Shown here: one piece after another, positions 10-56,182 of the stretch
Layout of the letters: each line of letters opens with the position of its first letter
How positions within the stretch are numbered: the stretch's first letter is position 1
IMG/VR virus record: IMGVR_UViG_3300043172_000799
Location: 1 to 64,000 of that record
Reading direction: 5' to 3' (one strand)
Source of the DNA: a virus
DNA: 64,000 nucleotides
Program-made: the position numbers and the translations under genes
The notes under the pieces: model-generated
Told to the model about the DNA's origin: nothing
Database searches by the model: none
Seen by the model: the letters and a program-made list of their open reading frames with translations, nothing else

Positions 10-438
10 TCAAGTACTTTTATCCAAAGTAATTTTTTCATAGCAATGTGGGCAGATTATAGTTTTTCCAACTACAATCATATCCTGTACTTCTACGATT
101 AGTCCATCCACACAAATATTGTATTGATCATCGTGATCCTCCCCCTGTACTTCTACTATTCCAATTAAACCAAATCTTGTAAATTTACTATTCATCAATG
201 CAATTACTAGTTCTATAGCATCTTGCAAATTATGTGTACCTTCAGAACCACTCCATCTAACTCCAGAGAAGTCTTTTAATATCTCTAAATCTATATATGT
301 TAAATCAGGAAATATATCTCCCCATTCAGGGTGTTCTCGGTAATCTTCTCTGAGAACAGTTTGGAGATAAGCCAGTTCACTAGCTTTTAATTCTCTTGTG
401 AATTTTAATTCCCCATAGTAGTCTATATTGTATCCCAT
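10..438 (-). CDS. Hypothetical phage protein, 142 aa
   Basis: Function not recognised. The protein is acidic and mixed alpha/beta in appearance, with a single CPHC knuckle near residue 130. AAAGGAG sits 7 nt before the ATG. Its stop codon overlaps a TTGACA box (8-13, minus strand) that probably drives a gene left of the window. It is the last leftward gene here and is separated from the others by the RNA-like region 483-1180. Confidence 0.75.
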   Translation of the reverse strand: MGYNIDYYGELKFTRELKASELAYLQTVLREDYREHPEWGDIFPDLTYIDLEILKDFSGVRWSGSEGTHNLQDAIELVIALMNSKFTRFGLIGIVEVQGEDHDDQYNICVDGLIVEVQDMIVVGKTIICPHCYEKITLDKST

Positions 439-482
439 AATTACTCCTTTCCAACTTGGCTAATGTGTGTGTGTGTGTAGTA

Positions 483-608
483 TGGAGATGACGGCATCGA
501 AGCCGTGTCCGAACTACATGTACAAGATTTTAATCTACAGGAACTTTCGGTGCTAGTGCATTTACGTCATTCCTAATTACTATAATCCGTCGAAACCTTT
601 ACATCCCC
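483..608 (-). ncRNA. ssrA-like: tmRNA-like RNA, unusually short (about 126 nt)
   Basis: Read on the minus strand, the RNA starts GGGGATG and ends CATCTCC(A), giving a 7-bp acceptor stem with one G-U pair. It carries the tmRNA D-loop signature GGTTTCGACGG at the 5' side and TTCGGAC followed by an ACGGC-TTCGAT-GCCGT T-arm at the 3' side. These are hallmarks of the tRNA-like domain of transfer-messenger RNA. No 3' CCA is encoded (ends CCATA). The roughly 80 nt between the halves is far too short for the usual four pseudoknots. It contains an open frame reading D-V-N-A-L-A-P-K-V-P-V-D then TAA, which could be a tag, but this is inference. A possible promoter is TTGCTT (649-654) N17 TAAAAT (626-631). 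It may be a minimal tmRNA, a decayed one or a tRNA-like decoy. Confidence 0.7.
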
Positions 609-1180
609 TAAAAATCAGAGGGTCTATTTTAGATTGAACCCCCTGCTAAAGCAATCCTGACATGTTTTTAAAGTGGATTTTAAGTTCCCACTACTATGGA
701 TGCCATAGCACAGACAGAACATTATTTAATGTGCTTTCCATCCTTGTTCACACATGCCAAATATTTAACGTGGATTCAATGGCTTCCAGCAAGCAAGACT
801 ATTCTTTCCTCCCCTCCAAACTTTAACGTATTTACTCAGGGTCTTATACGAGTGAGCAGAACGTGCTTTTCTTCCAAACAGTAGCAGAGGTCATCCCGTA
901 GGATCGTCACTAGAACTGCGCAGTTCATTTACAGGGTTATGGTACAACGACCTAAAGATGGTTTAATGTTCCCTGACCACCTTTCCTTAATCCACAGCCA
1001 CACTCTGGGTGCCTACTCTTAGTAGCTTCCTCTCGACTAACTGTTTCATGTCTTAAAGCAATTGGCGTGGTATTCTCGACGCCCCGTTTTACTTCAGCAC
1101 AACATATGTGAATGTGCCCCAACTATCGACCACAGTTGGCTCTCGCTCTGATAAACAAAATACTCCTCCTTTATTAATAT
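609..1180 (-). ncRNA. Candidate large structured non-coding RNA region
   Basis: About 570 bp with no convincing protein frame on either strand and visibly higher GC than its surroundings. On the minus strand it contains many short stems: CCAACT/AGTTGG (about 1135-1158), GGCGT/ACGCC, CTACT/AGTAG, and the perfect palindrome GAACTGCGCAGTTC (913-926). A CAGGGGGTT/GACCCTCTG hairpin (616-645) followed by ATTTTTA lies just before the tmRNA-like gene. The size, phage context and position beside a tRNA-like gene recall the large ornate phage RNAs ROOL and GOLLD, but I cannot match a consensus by eye. The strand is inferred from the neighbours. Confidence 0.4.
616..645 (-). terminator. Hairpin, possible terminator before the tmRNA-like gene
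   Basis: A 9-bp stem with two G-U pairs, a 12-nt loop and then ATTTTTA on the minus strand, ending one base before the GGGG start of the tmRNA-like RNA. It could end the upstream RNA. The overlapping TTGCTT-N17-TAAAAT hints that it may instead be promoter DNA. Confidence 0.4.
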
Positions 1181-1184
1181 TATA

Positions 1185-1412
1185 CTATTTCATCTCTACA
1201 ACCATATTAGGTATAGCTTCTGGTACTCTTCTTACATCAAATGTCTCTAGGTTCCCAACATCCTTTGCATAGAAGATCCCTCTCCAAAAACTCTCTGCGA
1301 ATTTTATTGACTTTAATAATTTCATTATTGTTCATTATTAAATCAATCACATCTTTTCTTTCCATTCCCCAGAGTCTCCTTCAAAAATCTCAATCATTCT
1401 TTCTTTTGTCAT
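1185..1412 (-). pseudogene. Small gene split by two apparent frameshifts (about 75 aa if restored)
   Basis: An ATG at 1412 overlaps the integrase stop (ATGA) and has a GGAGG site. The first frame reads MTKERMIEIFEGDSGEWKEK and stops at once. The second frame continues DVIDLIMNNNEIIKVNKIRR, and the third reads REFWRGIFYAKDVGNLETFD and runs to TAG at 1185. Adding one A to an AAAA run and removing one T from a TTTTT run gives a single sensible protein, so the lesions may be homopolymer errors rather than decay. Function unknown. Confidence 0.5.
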
Positions 1413-2344
1413 ACTATTACCTCCAATCCTCTCAAATATTTTTCAGTCACTGTGACACTTGCATGGTGAAGTGCCTTTGACACAAGATAGATATCTTTTG
1501 TCTTACTATATAGCTTGCAAGCAAACATATGACGATAGTCATGCGGTGTATATTTATGCATGATCTCTCTATTTTTATACAAAATCCCAATAGTTCTTCT
1601 GAAGGACGTTTGTACACTATTGCCATTTAAATCTGGCAGTAATTCAGAGTTTTCTGCTATGAAAGCATCTCCTTCCACATTAACTGAATAGAACTTCCCC
1701 TTGCTCATTGAACTTAAGGTTTTACCATCATATTTAATAAACTCTTTATTAAAGAACCCAACCCTCACTGCGTATTTAGTCATAATGTGAATTGCTAGTT
1801 TCATTTTTTTATCAGCTTTGGAATCCGAATTATACATTTCTAGTATATTTTCAATCTCTTTCTCAGAAGGCAAATGCTTAATTTCTGGAACTATTTTAGT
1901 ATTCTTTATTCTAACTCCTAGGAATGGATTTCGTTCAACCCATTCATGTCTACAAAGCATAGAGTAAAATGAAGAAAGTACTGACAGTATGAGCTTTGCC
2001 TTCCCACTACTATAATTACTTAAGACAGAATATTTATACAGATCTACAGTTTTAAAGTTTACATCCAGAAGTGATTTCCCATCTAGATATGTAATGAAAC
2101 TGTTTAGATACAAACTATACATGCGTTTAGTATCTTTGGCTTTGCCCTCAAGGAAGAAATTGATGTTATCCTGTAAATCAAATTCTGACTTTTGTACTTC
2201 AGATTTAACCTGAGTTTTATACTGATCCATTTTTACAGAGAGCAATACATGCTTCAACTGCTCTTCAGATAATTCCCTGAATGACTCCGGCATAGAACTT
2301 AAAATATCTACAACTGTATTCTCTGTATTCATTATAGCTGTCAT
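1409..2344 (-). CDS. int: Tyrosine recombinase/integrase (XerC/D-like)
   Basis: A 311-residue tyrosine recombinase. The N-terminal half is a helical SAM-like core-binding domain (residues about 60-135). The catalytic half shows box I arginine in TKYAVRVGF (about 195), box II HDYRH (268-272; R271), LHHASVTVTEKY with H294 and the nucleophile Y303. The enzyme family cuts and rejoins DNA through a 3'-phosphotyrosine. In a phage this implies integration, resolution of dimers or inversion; no attP core was recognised next to it. It has its own promoter (2367-2395). The ATG at 2344 is preceded by AAGGGGGAAAT. Confidence 0.92.
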   Translation of the reverse strand: MTAIMNTENTVVDILSSMPESFRELSEEQLKHVLLSVKMDQYKTQVKSEVQKSEFDLQDNINFFLEGKAKDTKRMYSLYLNSFITYLDGKSLLDVNFKTVDLYKYSVLSNYSSGKAKLILSVLSSFYSMLCRHEWVERNPFLGVRIKNTKIVPEIKHLPSEKEIENILEMYNSDSKADKKMKLAIHIMTKYAVRVGFFNKEFIKYDGKTLSSMSKGKFYSVNVEGDAFIAENSELLPDLNGNSVQTSFRRTIGILYKNREIMHKYTPHDYRHMFACKLYSKTKDIYLVSKALHHASVTVTEKYLRGLEVIV

Positions 2345-45193: not shown

Positions 45194-45949
45194 TCAGAAG
45201 AAGATAATAAAGAAGAACTCACCACAAATCAAAAGAAATCTCAGGCTCAGCGAAAGAGATGGGATAGGAATGCAGAGATAACCACTGGGAAACACTCTGA
45301 TAGAAGATCCAAACGATATGACTTCAAATGTTTTGAGGGAATTAGATTATCTGCCATGCAAAAAGAGTTTGTGGTGCGGTTCATGGACCCCCCATATAAT
45401 GGAATTAGAAAGAATCGCTACAAAGCATATTTGGAAGCAGGATTTACAGCATCTAATGATAATAGCTTAAAAGCAAATTGTACGGCAGCCTTAAATAAAA
45501 GCAATATCAAGGAAGCAATCCTAGCATATCAGAAGTACGCACTTCAAAATTTAAAAATAGAAGCAACCTCACAAAACGTTGATGCCCTGCGATTAAGAGC
45601 CACATATTCAGTGTCTGACTTTTATGAGACAGATGGCACTCCAAAACCTTTAGATAAAATATCTCCAGAAATGCTAGTCGTTATAGATGATATAGATGTT
45701 GATTGGAAATTATCTAATAAGGCTGAAAAGAAAATAATTAAATACACGCTGGCTAATCGTGAGAAAGCTATGAAGTCTTTACAAGAAATACTAGGTATTA
45801 TGAAGACTATGGAGACTATGGAGATCAGTGTGCCGGTTAGTAGTGGCAAGAATGCTATTGAAAATATAGGACAGAACAAGGATGCAGGTCCTAGAATCTC
45901 CATGAATATCACAGTAGGCAATCCTGCGAAGAAGGATTCTGATGGCTAA
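45191..45949 (+). CDS. terS: Terminase small subunit
   Basis: 252 residues. A helix-turn-helix region (LSAMQKEFVVRFM...NRYKAYLEAGFTASNDNSLKANCTAALNKSNIKEAI) matches the terminase_2 style of DNA-recognition domain that picks the packaging site; the rest is oligomerisation and TerL contact sequence. GTG start behind GGAGGCACACAA. Overlaps terL by 8 bp, as expected. Confidence 0.85.
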   Translation: MSEEDNKEELTTNQKKSQAQRKRWDRNAEITTGKHSDRRSKRYDFKCFEGIRLSAMQKEFVVRFMDPPYNGIRKNRYKAYLEAGFTASNDNSLKANCTAALNKSNIKEAILAYQKYALQNLKIEATSQNVDALRLRATYSVSDFYETDGTPKPLDKISPEMLVVIDDIDVDWKLSNKAEKKIIKYTLANREKAMKSLQEILGIMKTMETMEISVPVSSGKNAIENIGQNKDAGPRISMNITVGNPAKKDSDG

Positions 45950-48638
45950 GAAAGATTTAAGGAAAGCAAATAATATTCAAGATGTCAACTTTGACTTTAA
46001 TTTATCTGAGAAACAATATGAAGCATTAGTTTCAATTGCAACAGAATTATTTTTTGGTGGAGCAAAAGGAGCTGGCAAAGATCAGGCTTTAGATACATTA
46101 TTTTTAACTCCAACTGGGTTTAAAAAAAATATAGAATTAAATGTCGGAGATAGAATATGTAACCCTGATGGATCAATATCTAAAATACTACAAACACATC
46201 CAATTGAGAAAAAGAAAAAATATGTTTTACATTTCCGAGATGGGAGAAAAGCAGAATGCGGTGCAGATCATATTTGGTATGGGGCAAGAAAACATAACAA
46301 GTATCAGAGTTCTTGGAACGAAACAGGATGCACAAAAACAGCTAAAGAGATATATGCAATAACTAAAAGAGAAAAATTGAAATCTAAAAGAGAATGGTTC
46401 CGAATACCATTACCAAATCCTGTTAAATTTGATAACATTTATCAAAATAACAGAACAATTGAACCTTATTTGTTGGGAGTACTACTTGGAGACGGTTGTA
46501 TTACAGGAAATAACCAAACTAAAATTTCTACAGTAGATCAAGTGCATATGCTATCACAATTTTCTGAATATAACTTTAGAATTGTAGACTTCTCTAAATA
46601 TAATCTTGAAAAAAACAAAAACTTATTTGATTTATTTTTTACTGGGACACAGTGGAAAACTTTAGATAAGAATCTCAATAAATTAGGATTATTAGGAACC
46701 AGAAGTGCTACTAAGTTTATTCCAGAAGAATATAAAATTGCACCCAAAGAAGTCAGGTTAGCTGTGTTACAAGGATTATTAGATACGGATGGAAGTGTAG
46801 ATTGTAGTACTAGAAATGTAAGATACAGTTCTACATCCTTTCAATTAGCAGAAGATGTTGCTTGGTTGGCTAGAAGTTTAGGCTTTTACGCTTCTGTACA
46901 AATAAAAAAAGCAAGAGATAAAGTAGAAAAAGATGGCACAATATACCATTGCAAAGAAGGAAGAATAGTTTTTATACGAACATATAATGATTCACAATTA
47001 TTCAGACTGGAAAGACATAAAGACAAAGTAAAATCTGGAGTAGTAAGACCATTAGGATTATCCGTTGTAGATGTTACAATAGAAGAAGAAGTTGAGATGA
47101 GATGTATTTCAGTAGACAATCCCAACGGTTTGTACATCACTGAAGAGTTCATAGTTACACATAATTCACATCTTATCAGATATGCTTCTATATTATATTG
47201 TCTGGCAGTACCAGGACTTCAGGTATACCTATTTAGACGAACCAGTAAACAAGTTAGATCTAACCATCTATATGGATCTACTGGATATCTTAGTGTGCTC
47301 AAGCCATTTATAGATGCCGGAGTTGTAGATATAAATCAATCAGATAATAGAATAGACGTTTTTCATGAGGGAAAAGCAACATCTTCTATATTTCTCAGGC
47401 ATCTGCAACATGAATCAGATGTTGAGATATATAGGGGCTGTGAAATCCATTTTTTAATAATGGATGAGCTTACACATTTTACTTCTTATCAGTATAAGAC
47501 TCTTAGAAGTTGTGTACGTTTAGGTTTGAAGATTGACTATACAGAATTACAGAAAATGTATCCTTTTATGGTAGAAGGATTTTTTCCGAGGATATTGTGT
47601 GCATCAAATCCAGGATCTGCTGGACATTCATGGGTTAAAGCAAGTTGGATTGATAGACTTGTTCCAAATGTTATAGAGAGGATGCCTGACGAGGACGGAG
47701 GCATGTTACGGCAGTTCATCCCTGCTAAACTTGAAGACAATTACCATCTTATGGAAAGTGATCCATCATATAAGGCAAAACTTATAGGTGTAGGTGGAGA
47801 TGCTTCTAAGGCTATGCTCGATGGAAATTGGGAGATTGCAAGTGGATCTGCATTGGCAGATTGTTGGGATAAACGGTTTAACGTGATGCCACCATTTGAT
47901 ATACCTTCAAGTTGGGTAATAGATAGAGGTTTTGACTGGGGATCAGCCAAACCTTTCGCTTGCTGTTATTTCGCTGAAGCATCAGGATCTACTGCTACTC
48001 TTCATAATGGTAAGACATTCACTCCACCAGAGGGGACAATATTTATGATTGGGGAACTGTATGGAAACAATCCGGCAGATTCAGACCCAGACACGGGAGG
48101 CAAGTTATCTGCCAGACAGATAGGAGCTAGGATAAAAGAATATGAGGGATCTGTAGAATGGGGGCATAGAGTAAGGGCAGGAGCAGGAGATGGTCAGATA
48201 TTTGAGGCAAATAGAGCAGGAACAGAGGAATGCATAAATGATAATCTACTGAAAGGATATAATCTGGAAATAGTAGAAGGTGATCATGCTTCTTACATTA
48301 ACCAATATACTGAGGAATTGTTCACAAGAGCAGATAAATCAAAAGGATCTCGCAAAAAAGGATTGGAGCTTTTACGCTCTTATCTAATAGATGCTCACTG
48401 GCAAGAAATAATTAGTGATACTCCTGAGAAGAATGAGTTTATACCACCGGAGGAAGCAGGATTGGTATTTTTTGAAAATTGCAAGAATGCTATAAGAACT
48501 CTTCCTACTATTCCAAGAGATGAGCATGATCCAGAAGATGTGAATACAGAAGCACCCGATCATATATATGATGTTGTTAGATACCGTCTGGCATCTAATA
48601 GACCAAAATTTACAAGGCTAACCCTATTAGGGGTGTAG
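45942..48638 (+). CDS. terL: Terminase large subunit precursor with intein
   Basis: 898-residue precursor. Exteins are residues 1-46 and 409-898, giving a 536-residue TerL after splicing. The Walker A motif is split: GGAKGAGK | intein | SHLIRYA. Walker B is IHFLIMDELTHF. The C-terminal nuclease shows DRGFDWGSAKPF, GAGDGQIFEAN and a late PDHIYDVVRY Asp. It should power ATP-driven DNA packaging and cut the concatemer, and needs splicing to rebuild the P-loop. Ends TAG TAA. Confidence 0.93.
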   Translation: MAKKDLRKANNIQDVNFDFNLSEKQYEALVSIATELFFGGAKGAGKDQALDTLFLTPTGFKKNIELNVGDRICNPDGSISKILQTHPIEKKKKYVLHFRDGRKAECGADHIWYGARKHNKYQSSWNETGCTKTAKEIYAITKREKLKSKREWFRIPLPNPVKFDNIYQNNRTIEPYLLGVLLGDGCITGNNQTKISTVDQVHMLSQFSEYNFRIVDFSKYNLEKNKNLFDLFFTGTQWKTLDKNLNKLGLLGTRSATKFIPEEYKIAPKEVRLAVLQGLLDTDGSVDCSTRNVRYSSTSFQLAEDVAWLARSLGFYASVQIKKARDKVEKDGTIYHCKEGRIVFIRTYNDSQLFRLERHKDKVKSGVVRPLGLSVVDVTIEEEVEMRCISVDNPNGLYITEEFIVTHNSHLIRYASILYCLAVPGLQVYLFRRTSKQVRSNHLYGSTGYLSVLKPFIDAGVVDINQSDNRIDVFHEGKATSSIFLRHLQHESDVEIYRGCEIHFLIMDELTHFTSYQYKTLRSCVRLGLKIDYTELQKMYPFMVEGFFPRILCASNPGSAGHSWVKASWIDRLVPNVIERMPDEDGGMLRQFIPAKLEDNYHLMESDPSYKAKLIGVGGDASKAMLDGNWEIASGSALADCWDKRFNVMPPFDIPSSWVIDRGFDWGSAKPFACCYFAEASGSTATLHNGKTFTPPEGTIFMIGELYGNNPADSDPDTGGKLSARQIGARIKEYEGSVEWGHRVRAGAGDGQIFEANRAGTEECINDNLLKGYNLEIVEGDHASYINQYTEELFTRADKSKGSRKKGLELLRSYLIDAHWQEIISDTPEKNEFIPPEEAGLVFFENCKNAIRTLPTIPRDEHDPEDVNTEAPDHIYDVVRYRLASNRPKFTRLTLLGV
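46080..47165 (+). other. LAGLIDADG intein in the TerL Walker A, probably class 3 (WCT)
   Basis: Residues 47-408 of the precursor (362 aa). The C-terminal junction is VTHN|S, canonical. The N-terminal residue is Asp in DQALDTLFLTPTG, not Cys or Ser. Block B has ADHIW, block F has MRCISVDNPNGLY and block G has the T of VTHN, which together give the W-C-T triplet of class 3 inteins that splice without a first-residue nucleophile. Two LAGLIDADG-like motifs (LLGVLLGDG and LQGLLDTDG) mark a homing endonuclease. Confidence 0.88.
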
Positions 48639-54838: not shown

Positions 54839-56182
54839 GTGGGCAATGTGTTGACAAAGCTGATACAGATAATACCAGATGATGATATTAATGGTACGTA
54901 TAAAATTATACGTGATTGGATGTACCATAGTACATCACTTGCAAATCTTATTATGACTGAGACATATGTAATAACACAAAGAGCAAGAGCCTTGTGCACT
55001 GCTCAGCCTGAATTAGATTATTTTCAGGCTGTTGCAAAAATGAAGGTTGAACGTGTTGGAAGTTATATTGGTAAAGTCACAGAAAAGACAATAGGTAGTA
55101 GTTTTGGGTATTGTTTATCTAAATCCCCTAATTATGCAGAAAATATTCCAGGGGCTATTCGTACCAAAATAGATAAGGTGGTTGGACAACACTTTCAAGC
55201 AGATGTAAAAACCAATGGATTGCTGAAGGGAAATTGTTCTCTTAGATCTTACAGCCGTAAAAACATGGCTGTATATCTACCCAGTAGTAAGGGTGCTTCT
55301 AAGTTTACTTGTGAGGATGGTAACTACTATTTTAGTACCATTAACAAATTGCGATTTAAAGTATTTTTAGGTAGGGACAATAGCAAAAACAAATTAGCTA
55401 TTGACAGGATTATTTCTGGTGAGTATAAAATGCCTGATGTATCCATAAAGATTAAGGATAATAAAATATTTGTATTGGCACCTATAACAATTGAAGTAAC
55501 AGATTTGGGATTAGACCCAGAGCTATCAGTTGGTGTAGACTTAGGAATTACTATTCCTGCGGTGTGTGCATTGTCCACTGGATTAGATAGAGCATTTATA
55601 GGTAATGGCACTGAGATAGTCAACTACCGTTTTTCTATGCGAAGAAAGAGAAAAAACTTACAGAAGAGTTTAACATTGTCTACAGGAGGAAGAGGAAGAG
55701 GAAAAAAACTAAAAGCATTAGAAAGGATAAGTAGTACTGAAAGTAATTGGATAAAGACTAAAAATCATTTAATTTCTAAAAAAATTATTGATTTTGCATT
55801 GACAAACGGAGCAGGAACTGTTAAGCTTGAATTATTAGAAGGGTTCACCAAAGAACATTCTTCCAACATTGTGCTAAAAGATTGGACGTATTATCAGTTA
55901 GGAGAGATGATACAGTACAAAGCAAAAATAGCTGGAATTGTAGTAGTACGGATAGATCCTTATCACACTTCACAGACATGCAACGTGTGTGGACATTCTA
56001 CTAAAGAGAACAGACCTAAAGGTACAAAAGGTCAAGCATACTTTAAATGTGTGTCTTGTGGGCATAAAACCAACGCAGACCTTAATGCTGCACGGAATAT
56101 TGCAAAATCGACAAAGATAGTAACTAAGAAGAAGGAATGCCAGTACCACAAATTGAAAAGTAACTTAATAGAAGTATCTTAA
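54839..56182 (+). CDS. Compact Cas12/TnpB-like RuvC nuclease beside a CRISPR array
   Basis: 447 residues, GTG start with AAAGGAG 7 nt upstream. The N-terminal half (1-225) is a helical then beta REC/wedge-like region. RuvC-I is VGVDLGIT (D234), RuvC-II is VKLELLEGF (E331), the zinc finger is CNVCGH...CVSCGH (C381, C384, C404, C407) and RuvC-III is TNADLNAARNIA (D414). All catalytic and zinc residues are intact. A basic linker (MRRKRKNLQK, GGRGRGKK) lies between RuvC-I and II, the bridge-helix position. Size fits TnpB and the smallest Cas12 proteins. No TnpA is nearby; a CRISPR array begins 203 bp downstream. Likely an RNA-guided DNA nuclease; subtype cannot be fixed by eye. Confidence 0.85.
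   Translation: MGNVLTKLIQIIPDDDINGTYKIIRDWMYHSTSLANLIMTETYVITQRARALCTAQPELDYFQAVAKMKVERVGSYIGKVTEKTIGSSFGYCLSKSPNYAENIPGAIRTKIDKVVGQHFQADVKTNGLLKGNCSLRSYSRKNMAVYLPSSKGASKFTCEDGNYYFSTINKLRFKVFLGRDNSKNKLAIDRIISGEYKMPDVSIKIKDNKIFVLAPITIEVTDLGLDPELSVGVDLGITIPAVCALSTGLDRAFIGNGTEIVNYRFSMRRKRKNLQKSLTLSTGGRGRGKKLKALERISSTESNWIKTKNHLISKKIIDFALTNGAGTVKLELLEGFTKEHSSNIVLKDWTYYQLGEMIQYKAKIAGIVVVRIDPYHTSQTCNVCGHSTKENRPKGTKGQAYFKCVSCGHKTNADLNAARNIAKSTKIVTKKKECQYHKLKSNLIEVS

Follow-up and report, generated by a model that had tools for sequence, protein, structure and literature searches.

A message-less tmRNA variant is encoded near the start of the analysed DNA, a stretch of 64,000 nucleotides of the virus record IMGVR_UViG_3300043172_000799 that is referred to below as the window. 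The gene comprises 126 nt at positions 483-608 on the minus strand, with G1 at 608 and A73 at 483, and is of the type known from mycobacteriophage DS6A, i.e., a tRNA-like domain is kept and the coding part is gone in a phage genome. It is classed as a CDS-less tmRNA variant and not as a standard tmRNA, since an mRNA-like domain with a tag frame and pseudoknots, both among the defining features of a standard tmRNA, were tested for and not found. Judged from its sequence, the RNA is likely to serve as a decoy which competes for host SmpB, AlaRS and stalled ribosomes.

Identity and anatomy of the RNA gene

In a covariance model search of the 64-kb window, the Rfam tmRNA model RF00023 matched positions 480-608 with 52.9 bits (E = 5.5e-18; gathering score, used as cut-off, 47), a score that rules out a chance match. 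The initial annotation had proposed a reduced tmRNA-like gene of about 126 nt at this place together with a check by a tmRNA covariance model, rejection by which would speak against it; the coordinates proved to be exact, and RF00023 did not reject the RNA. The match was the sole one over threshold in the Rfam search of the window, and Rfam revealed no other tmRNA in the complete record of 168,384 bases, which carries terminase, portal and capsid genes. A plain tRNA was discarded, as no anticodon arm was found, ARAGORN called neither a tRNA nor a tmRNA over the window and no over-threshold match to RF00005 occurred there. Likewise, a permuted two-piece tmRNA was discarded, as the halves stand in normal order and the window holds no match to RF04321. 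Since ARAGORN is blind to the RNA, routine annotation would overlook it. The gene, its parts and its upstream neighbourhood are as follows.

483-608, minus strand: CDS-less tmRNA, a tRNA-like domain in which a short structured cap replaces the mRNA-like domain (RF00023, 52.9 bits)
602-608, minus strand: 5' strand of the acceptor stem, GGGGATG, including G3 of G3-U70 (7/7 pairs with 484-490)
590-601, minus strand: D-region TAAAGGTTTCGA, containing GG and the larger part of the TTCGAC core (from the sequence, in agreement with the Rfam consensus)
581-589, minus strand: 5' strand of P2, CGGATTATA (nine uninterrupted pairs with 510-518)
519-580, minus strand: 62-nt centre in place of the mRNA-like domain (predicted fold)
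510-518, minus strand: 3' strand of P2, TGTAGTTCG (pairs with 581-589)
491-506, minus strand: T-arm ACGGC-TTCGAT-GCCGT with a 6-nt loop (5/5 stem pairs)
483-490, minus strand: 3' strand of the acceptor stem, CATCTCC, and discriminator A73 (pairs with 602-608)
609-1165, minus strand: about 560 nt free of genes, adjoining the RNA on its upstream side (no ORF of 60 aa on the minus strand)
1409-2344, minus strand: integrase gene, the upstream neighbour (PHROGs phrog_1, E = 4.4e-20)

The acceptor halves, D-region and T-arm, described as clear in the initial annotation, are all present. The acceptor stem is paired over its full 7 bp and includes G3-U70, which together with A73 forms the alanine identity elements read by AlaRS; the D-region GGTTTCGACGG keeps GG..UUCGAC, P2 is formed, and the T-loop is one base short, with 6 instead of 7 bases. 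CCA is not encoded, the bases after A73 being TAC. The imposed tRNA-like fold reaches -32.9 kcal/mol compared to -33.6 kcal/mol for the unconstrained minimum (cost 0.7 kcal/mol), and the unconstrained fold is mildly stabler than those of shuffled sequences (z = -1.83). The alignment to RF00023 spans the whole model (1-374), 284 middle positions of which correspond to 39 nt, and an mRNA-like domain with a resume codon and a conserved tag frame was not found. For the centre between the P2 strands (519-580), a folding program that does not include pseudoknots predicted two small hairpins enclosed by P2; the centre contains a loop motif of 24 nt, GACGTAAATGCACTAGCACCGAAA, with AGGAA/TTCCT as the closing pairs, plus the second small hairpin. 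Pseudoknots around the coding part are lacking, and the length of the centre, only 62 nt, argues against them, which bears out the earlier remark that there is no space for such structures.

Regarding the surroundings, the gene-free stretch at 609-1165 reaches a GC content of 0.46 compared to 0.31-0.37 around it and is possibly a large structured RNA; its folding stability showed no excess (z = 0.25), and no Rfam match was obtained in it. Promoter-like sites near the RNA gene were as frequent as expected from shuffles (3 vs 3.1). Close relatives of the virus were not detected via the integrase, the portal led only to a 100%-identical contig, and window positions 300-1200 gave no DNA match in the phages collection. 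Elsewhere in the window, the terminase gene (45942-48638, plus strand) is apparently split by an intein or homing-endonuclease segment, as its PHROG matches belong to both terminase and endonuclease families. In addition, a transposase-family gene (54839-56182, plus strand; phrog_506) lies among the structural genes, and its product resembles a TnpB-type protein.

Short tmRNAs in viral contigs and named phages

Viral contigs were scanned for TTCGAC...GGAC-T-arm patterns at short spacings, which yielded 10, at least 120, 34, 35 and 4 stretches in the individual scans; the pattern itself requires TTCGAC, GGAC and a large part of the T-arm, and conservation of these parts is therefore by design. 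Acceptance was decided by a script that sets the acceptor register from the T-arm and does not favour G-U; two other register choices favoured good pairing, one of them also G-U, and the accepted counts avoid both. The 174 loci held 173 matches, of which at least 114, the window included, were accepted (59 rejected); the accepted ones collapse to at least 71 distinct sequences. Nine of the ten stretches from the first scan scored above the Rfam tmRNA cut-off. Among the matches listed, G3-U70 and A73, neither of which was required by the pattern, occurred together in all 111 accepted matches whose acceptor stem was paired 7/7, and the remaining three accepted matches, with six acceptor pairs, may be chance or damaged sequences.

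Most accepted forms have a length of 73-81 nt and consist of the tRNA-like domain and a short hairpin closing P2, leaving no possible message. The earlier suggestion that the RNA in the window may be the smallest tmRNA form seen in a phage thus had to be abandoned, as such forms are common in viral contigs and the TLD-only RNA of DS6A is in print. Ten accepted sequences, among them the window RNA, are longer (104-136 nt) and are referred to as capped forms. In a set of 57 distinct short forms, the T-stem was paired in all 57, P2 and T-stem were conserved and covarying, and 12 of 21 predicted pairs were changed on both sides, with the pair counts of some acceptor columns being lowered by misalignment in MAFFT. 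Like the window RNA, 50 of the 71 distinct forms among the matches listed do not encode CCA. The window RNA further belongs to a subgroup with a six-base T-loop, comprising L001, L087, L143 and, added by eye, L316, which derives from the last scan of four stretches and stands outside the 114 accepted matches. L315, from the same scan, was judged by eye to be a chance match, and none of the 35 stretches of the longest-gap scan combined seven acceptor pairs with G3-U70. Four genuine-looking sequences of 72 nt (L018, L107, L111 and L116) failed the stem tests and are outside the counts; their T-stem pairing is unlike that of the others, and under a pairing-favouring register they feature a 7/7 acceptor stem with G-U. 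At least one tRNA was called at 11 of 50 short-form loci scanned, one of the 50 (L013) being a chance match.

As a cellular control, the same pattern gave at least 120 matches in at least 119 loci of cellular genome contigs, ten of which passed a loose test. Among the matches listed (119 loci), only L248 combined seven pairs, G3-U70 and A73. Thus, the short forms are, as far as the samples show, a viral feature among the viral and cellular matches listed. L248 (also L313) is a 111-nt tmRNA of 70 bits in an Uhrbacteria bin (genome G042, contig C17, 97414-97524); a normal tmRNA of 125 bits lies on another contig of this genome, so that the contig of L248 may be of viral origin.

A BLAST search with one short form led to seven phage records, including the Streptomyces phages LuckySocke and GiJojo (97.4%) and pSt2308 (83.3%), the others being BRock (two records), Alone3 and Stenotrophomonas phage Jojan60. 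Rfam confirmed four of five fetched regions (LuckySocke, pSt2308, Jojan60 and BRock), and Alone3 stayed below the cut-off. In the Streptomyces phages, the short tmRNAs are unannotated and follow tRNA-Val in a tRNA array. ARAGORN missed the short tmRNAs on which it was tried, and phages with known hosts accordingly carry them unannotated, as do many unrelated phages. Further BLAST hits in named phages were no short forms: H1, H5 and H13 are permuted and H7 is a full tmRNA. A separate observation concerns Vibrio phage D239 (L127, about 1969-2039), where a 70-nt sequence with a tmRNA-like acceptor and T-arm and a divergent D-region lies in a tRNA array; this sequence gave no over-threshold Rfam match.

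Proposed function and competing readings

A tRNA-like decoy acting on ribosome rescue had already been considered in the initial annotation, and it is the best-supported mechanism, as many viruses carry a tRNA-like domain that is intact and looks chargeable but has no recognisable message attached. The RNA would be transcribed and trimmed in the host, charged with alanine by host AlaRS and bound by host SmpB (and EF-Tu). It could then titrate these factors and act as a dead-end competitor of host tmRNA on stalled ribosomes, and the outcome in infection would be less tagging and degradation of unfinished proteins, or a slower rescue. In excerpts of the literature, a truncated tmRNA was crystallised with SmpB and EF-Tu on the ribosome (PMC8363625), and a DS6A-like molecule is described, second-hand, to inhibit tmRNA strongly, perhaps via SmpB titration (PMC4131195, repeated in PMC11915505). 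SmpB (PF01668) was found neither in the record of the window nor in the 40 short-tmRNA records tested, these records being fragments in which absence is not proof. Against the decoy speak the lack of an encoded CCA, the 6-nt T-loop of the window RNA and the promoter-like sites nearby, which do not exceed the number in shuffles. Moreover, in one of the 40 records, G003 (locus L019), a short form occurs together with a full-length tmRNA of 392 nt (L300, 1501-1892), in which ARAGORN names a tag; this coexistence is unexplained by a pure anti-tmRNA decoy. Likewise, not all phages need to block tmRNA, since host tmRNA stays abundant in T4 infection according to an excerpt of PMC9697503.

The same coexistence in G003 would fit a cooperating role, in which the charged RNA with SmpB takes over the nascent chain without tagging it and hands over to an ArfA-, ArfB- or RqcH-type release, so that the phage protein is spared. 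In addition, the complete set of charging determinants is retained; a pure SmpB sponge could do without them, given that the inhibition by TLD-only RNA is said to be independent of chargeability in the part of PMC4131195 consulted. Nevertheless, TLD-only RNA was reported as an inhibitor, and we regard such non-tagging rescue or regulation as unlikely.

Less probable still is a working minimal tmRNA, on which the ribosome would resume in the 62-nt centre and append a short tag, VNALAPKVPVD or longer, ending at TAA (530-532) without any pseudoknot. The short TAA-ended frame that the initial annotation placed where a tag would be does exist, running through the centre as GAC GTA AAT GCA CTA GCA CCG AAA GTT CCT GTA GAT TAA from 568 down to 530, but its role as a tag became doubtful. 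Its start, NDVNALA, resembles the core of the common tmRNA tag ANDENYALAA, and ENAL occurs at a similar place in L007 and L065, with a stop behind it in L007. However, short stop-ended frames without a start codon are common, and the C-terminus PVD is unlike the usual hydrophobic degradation signal, which counts against a working tag. The candidate tag DVNALAPKVPVD overlaps an RNA motif common to the virus locus L143, the score of which was reached by none of 1000 dinucleotide shuffles. The first 25 bases of the frame align with the centre of L143 (GACGTAAA-TGCACTAGCACCGAAAG vs GACGAAAAGCGCAC-AGAACCGAAAG) with gaps that shift the frame, and no stop codon follows the motif in L143 and L142, with all frames inspected, or in the ENAL frame of L065. 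L143 thus cannot encode a terminated tag, and the motif shared across frame-shifting gaps, together with the lack of stops in L143 and L142, resembles a constraint on RNA shape and not on codons. Visual comparison of the ten capped forms revealed no common conserved frame. DVNALAPKVPVD is probably no tag, and it is improbable that the window RNA itself contains one. Summed over the nine other capped forms, the similarity to the window centre was reached by 3 of 1000 shuffles, and eight of the nine single comparisons, i.e., all but L143, were not significant. A sequence-only model (R1) built from seven other capped centres, with the window left out, yielded no window match with an E value of 10 or below, which indicates that the capped class is loose and speaks against a single tight motif across it.

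A decoy or sponge for another target, such as AlaRS, a host RNase or a defence factor targeting tRNA or tmRNA, might be considered as several short forms lie near phage tRNA genes, where other RNAs replace parts of the host translation machinery; still, the conserved features are those of tmRNA and not of plain tRNA-Ala, and no defence factor was linked to the short tmRNAs in the present analysis, so that this reading is very unlikely. The faintest case is that of an attP relic at a host tmRNA gene or a functionless decayed pseudogene: the integrase gene lies 0.8 kb off and tmRNA genes are frequent integration sites (excerpts of PMC11915505 and PMC10865867), but both halves are present with 7/7 pairs whereas an attP core usually has the 3' half only (excerpt of PMC10865867), G3-U70 and A73 persist in 111/111 full-acceptor-stem matches among those listed, and the 28-mer of T-arm and acceptor (up to two mismatches) occurred in none of 295 genomes of one phylum, which may not be that of the host.

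Significance and comparison with known systems

Nearly all bacteria use tmRNA for ribosome rescue, and to our knowledge phages have rarely been shown to attack this process. In the literature searched, a message-less phage tmRNA is already known from one phage, DS6A; the viral breadth, the capped forms and the six-base T-loop subgroup are, as far as searched, undescribed. The importance of this breadth lies in at least 71 distinct sequences that keep the alanine-charging pair without exception where the acceptor stem is complete. Tentatively, message-less tmRNAs could be a widespread means of phages to counter or re-wire host rescue, with the 24-nt motif of the capped six-base T-loop subgroup possibly adding a second activity, either as the smallest tagging message known or as a docking site for the ribosome or a release factor. 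The Streptomyces phages LuckySocke and BRock, which have known laboratory hosts, offer a ready test case with their unannotated short tmRNA, and a phage shut-off of trans-translation thereby becomes directly testable.

The DS6A RNA, described as "TLD only" in excerpts of PMC4131195 and PMC11915505, is likewise phage-encoded, has little beyond the tRNA-like domain and lacks a tag. Unlike DS6A, which was compared by its description, the window RNA has P2 capped by a structured region of 62 nt and a T-loop of six bases. The two-piece (permuted) tmRNAs of PA_L9 and S-CRM01 share the phage-encoded tRNA-like domain, but their halves stand in the opposite order and match RF04321, whereas those of the window RNA are in normal order. 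Regarding the Audreyjarvisvirus tmRNAs of Lactococcus phages, the first 33 nt of the window RNA are 87.9% identical in phiL47, P1048 and AM1, and its first 27 nt are 92.6% identical in WRP3. Nevertheless, the tmRNAs of phiL47, WRP3, P1048 and AM1 are of full length (about 349 nt), cover the middle of RF00023 and score 111-118 bits to this model. No feature is annotated at their positions (L307 1501-1849, L308 601-948, L309 601-949 and L310 601-949). CDS-less tmRNAs are further known from the mitochondria of jakobids and oomycetes and from the plastids of Mallomonadaceae. These genes reside in organelles, have their SmpB partner encoded in the nucleus in some lineages and result from reductive loss, whereas the window RNA is a viral gene beside the tmRNA of its host.
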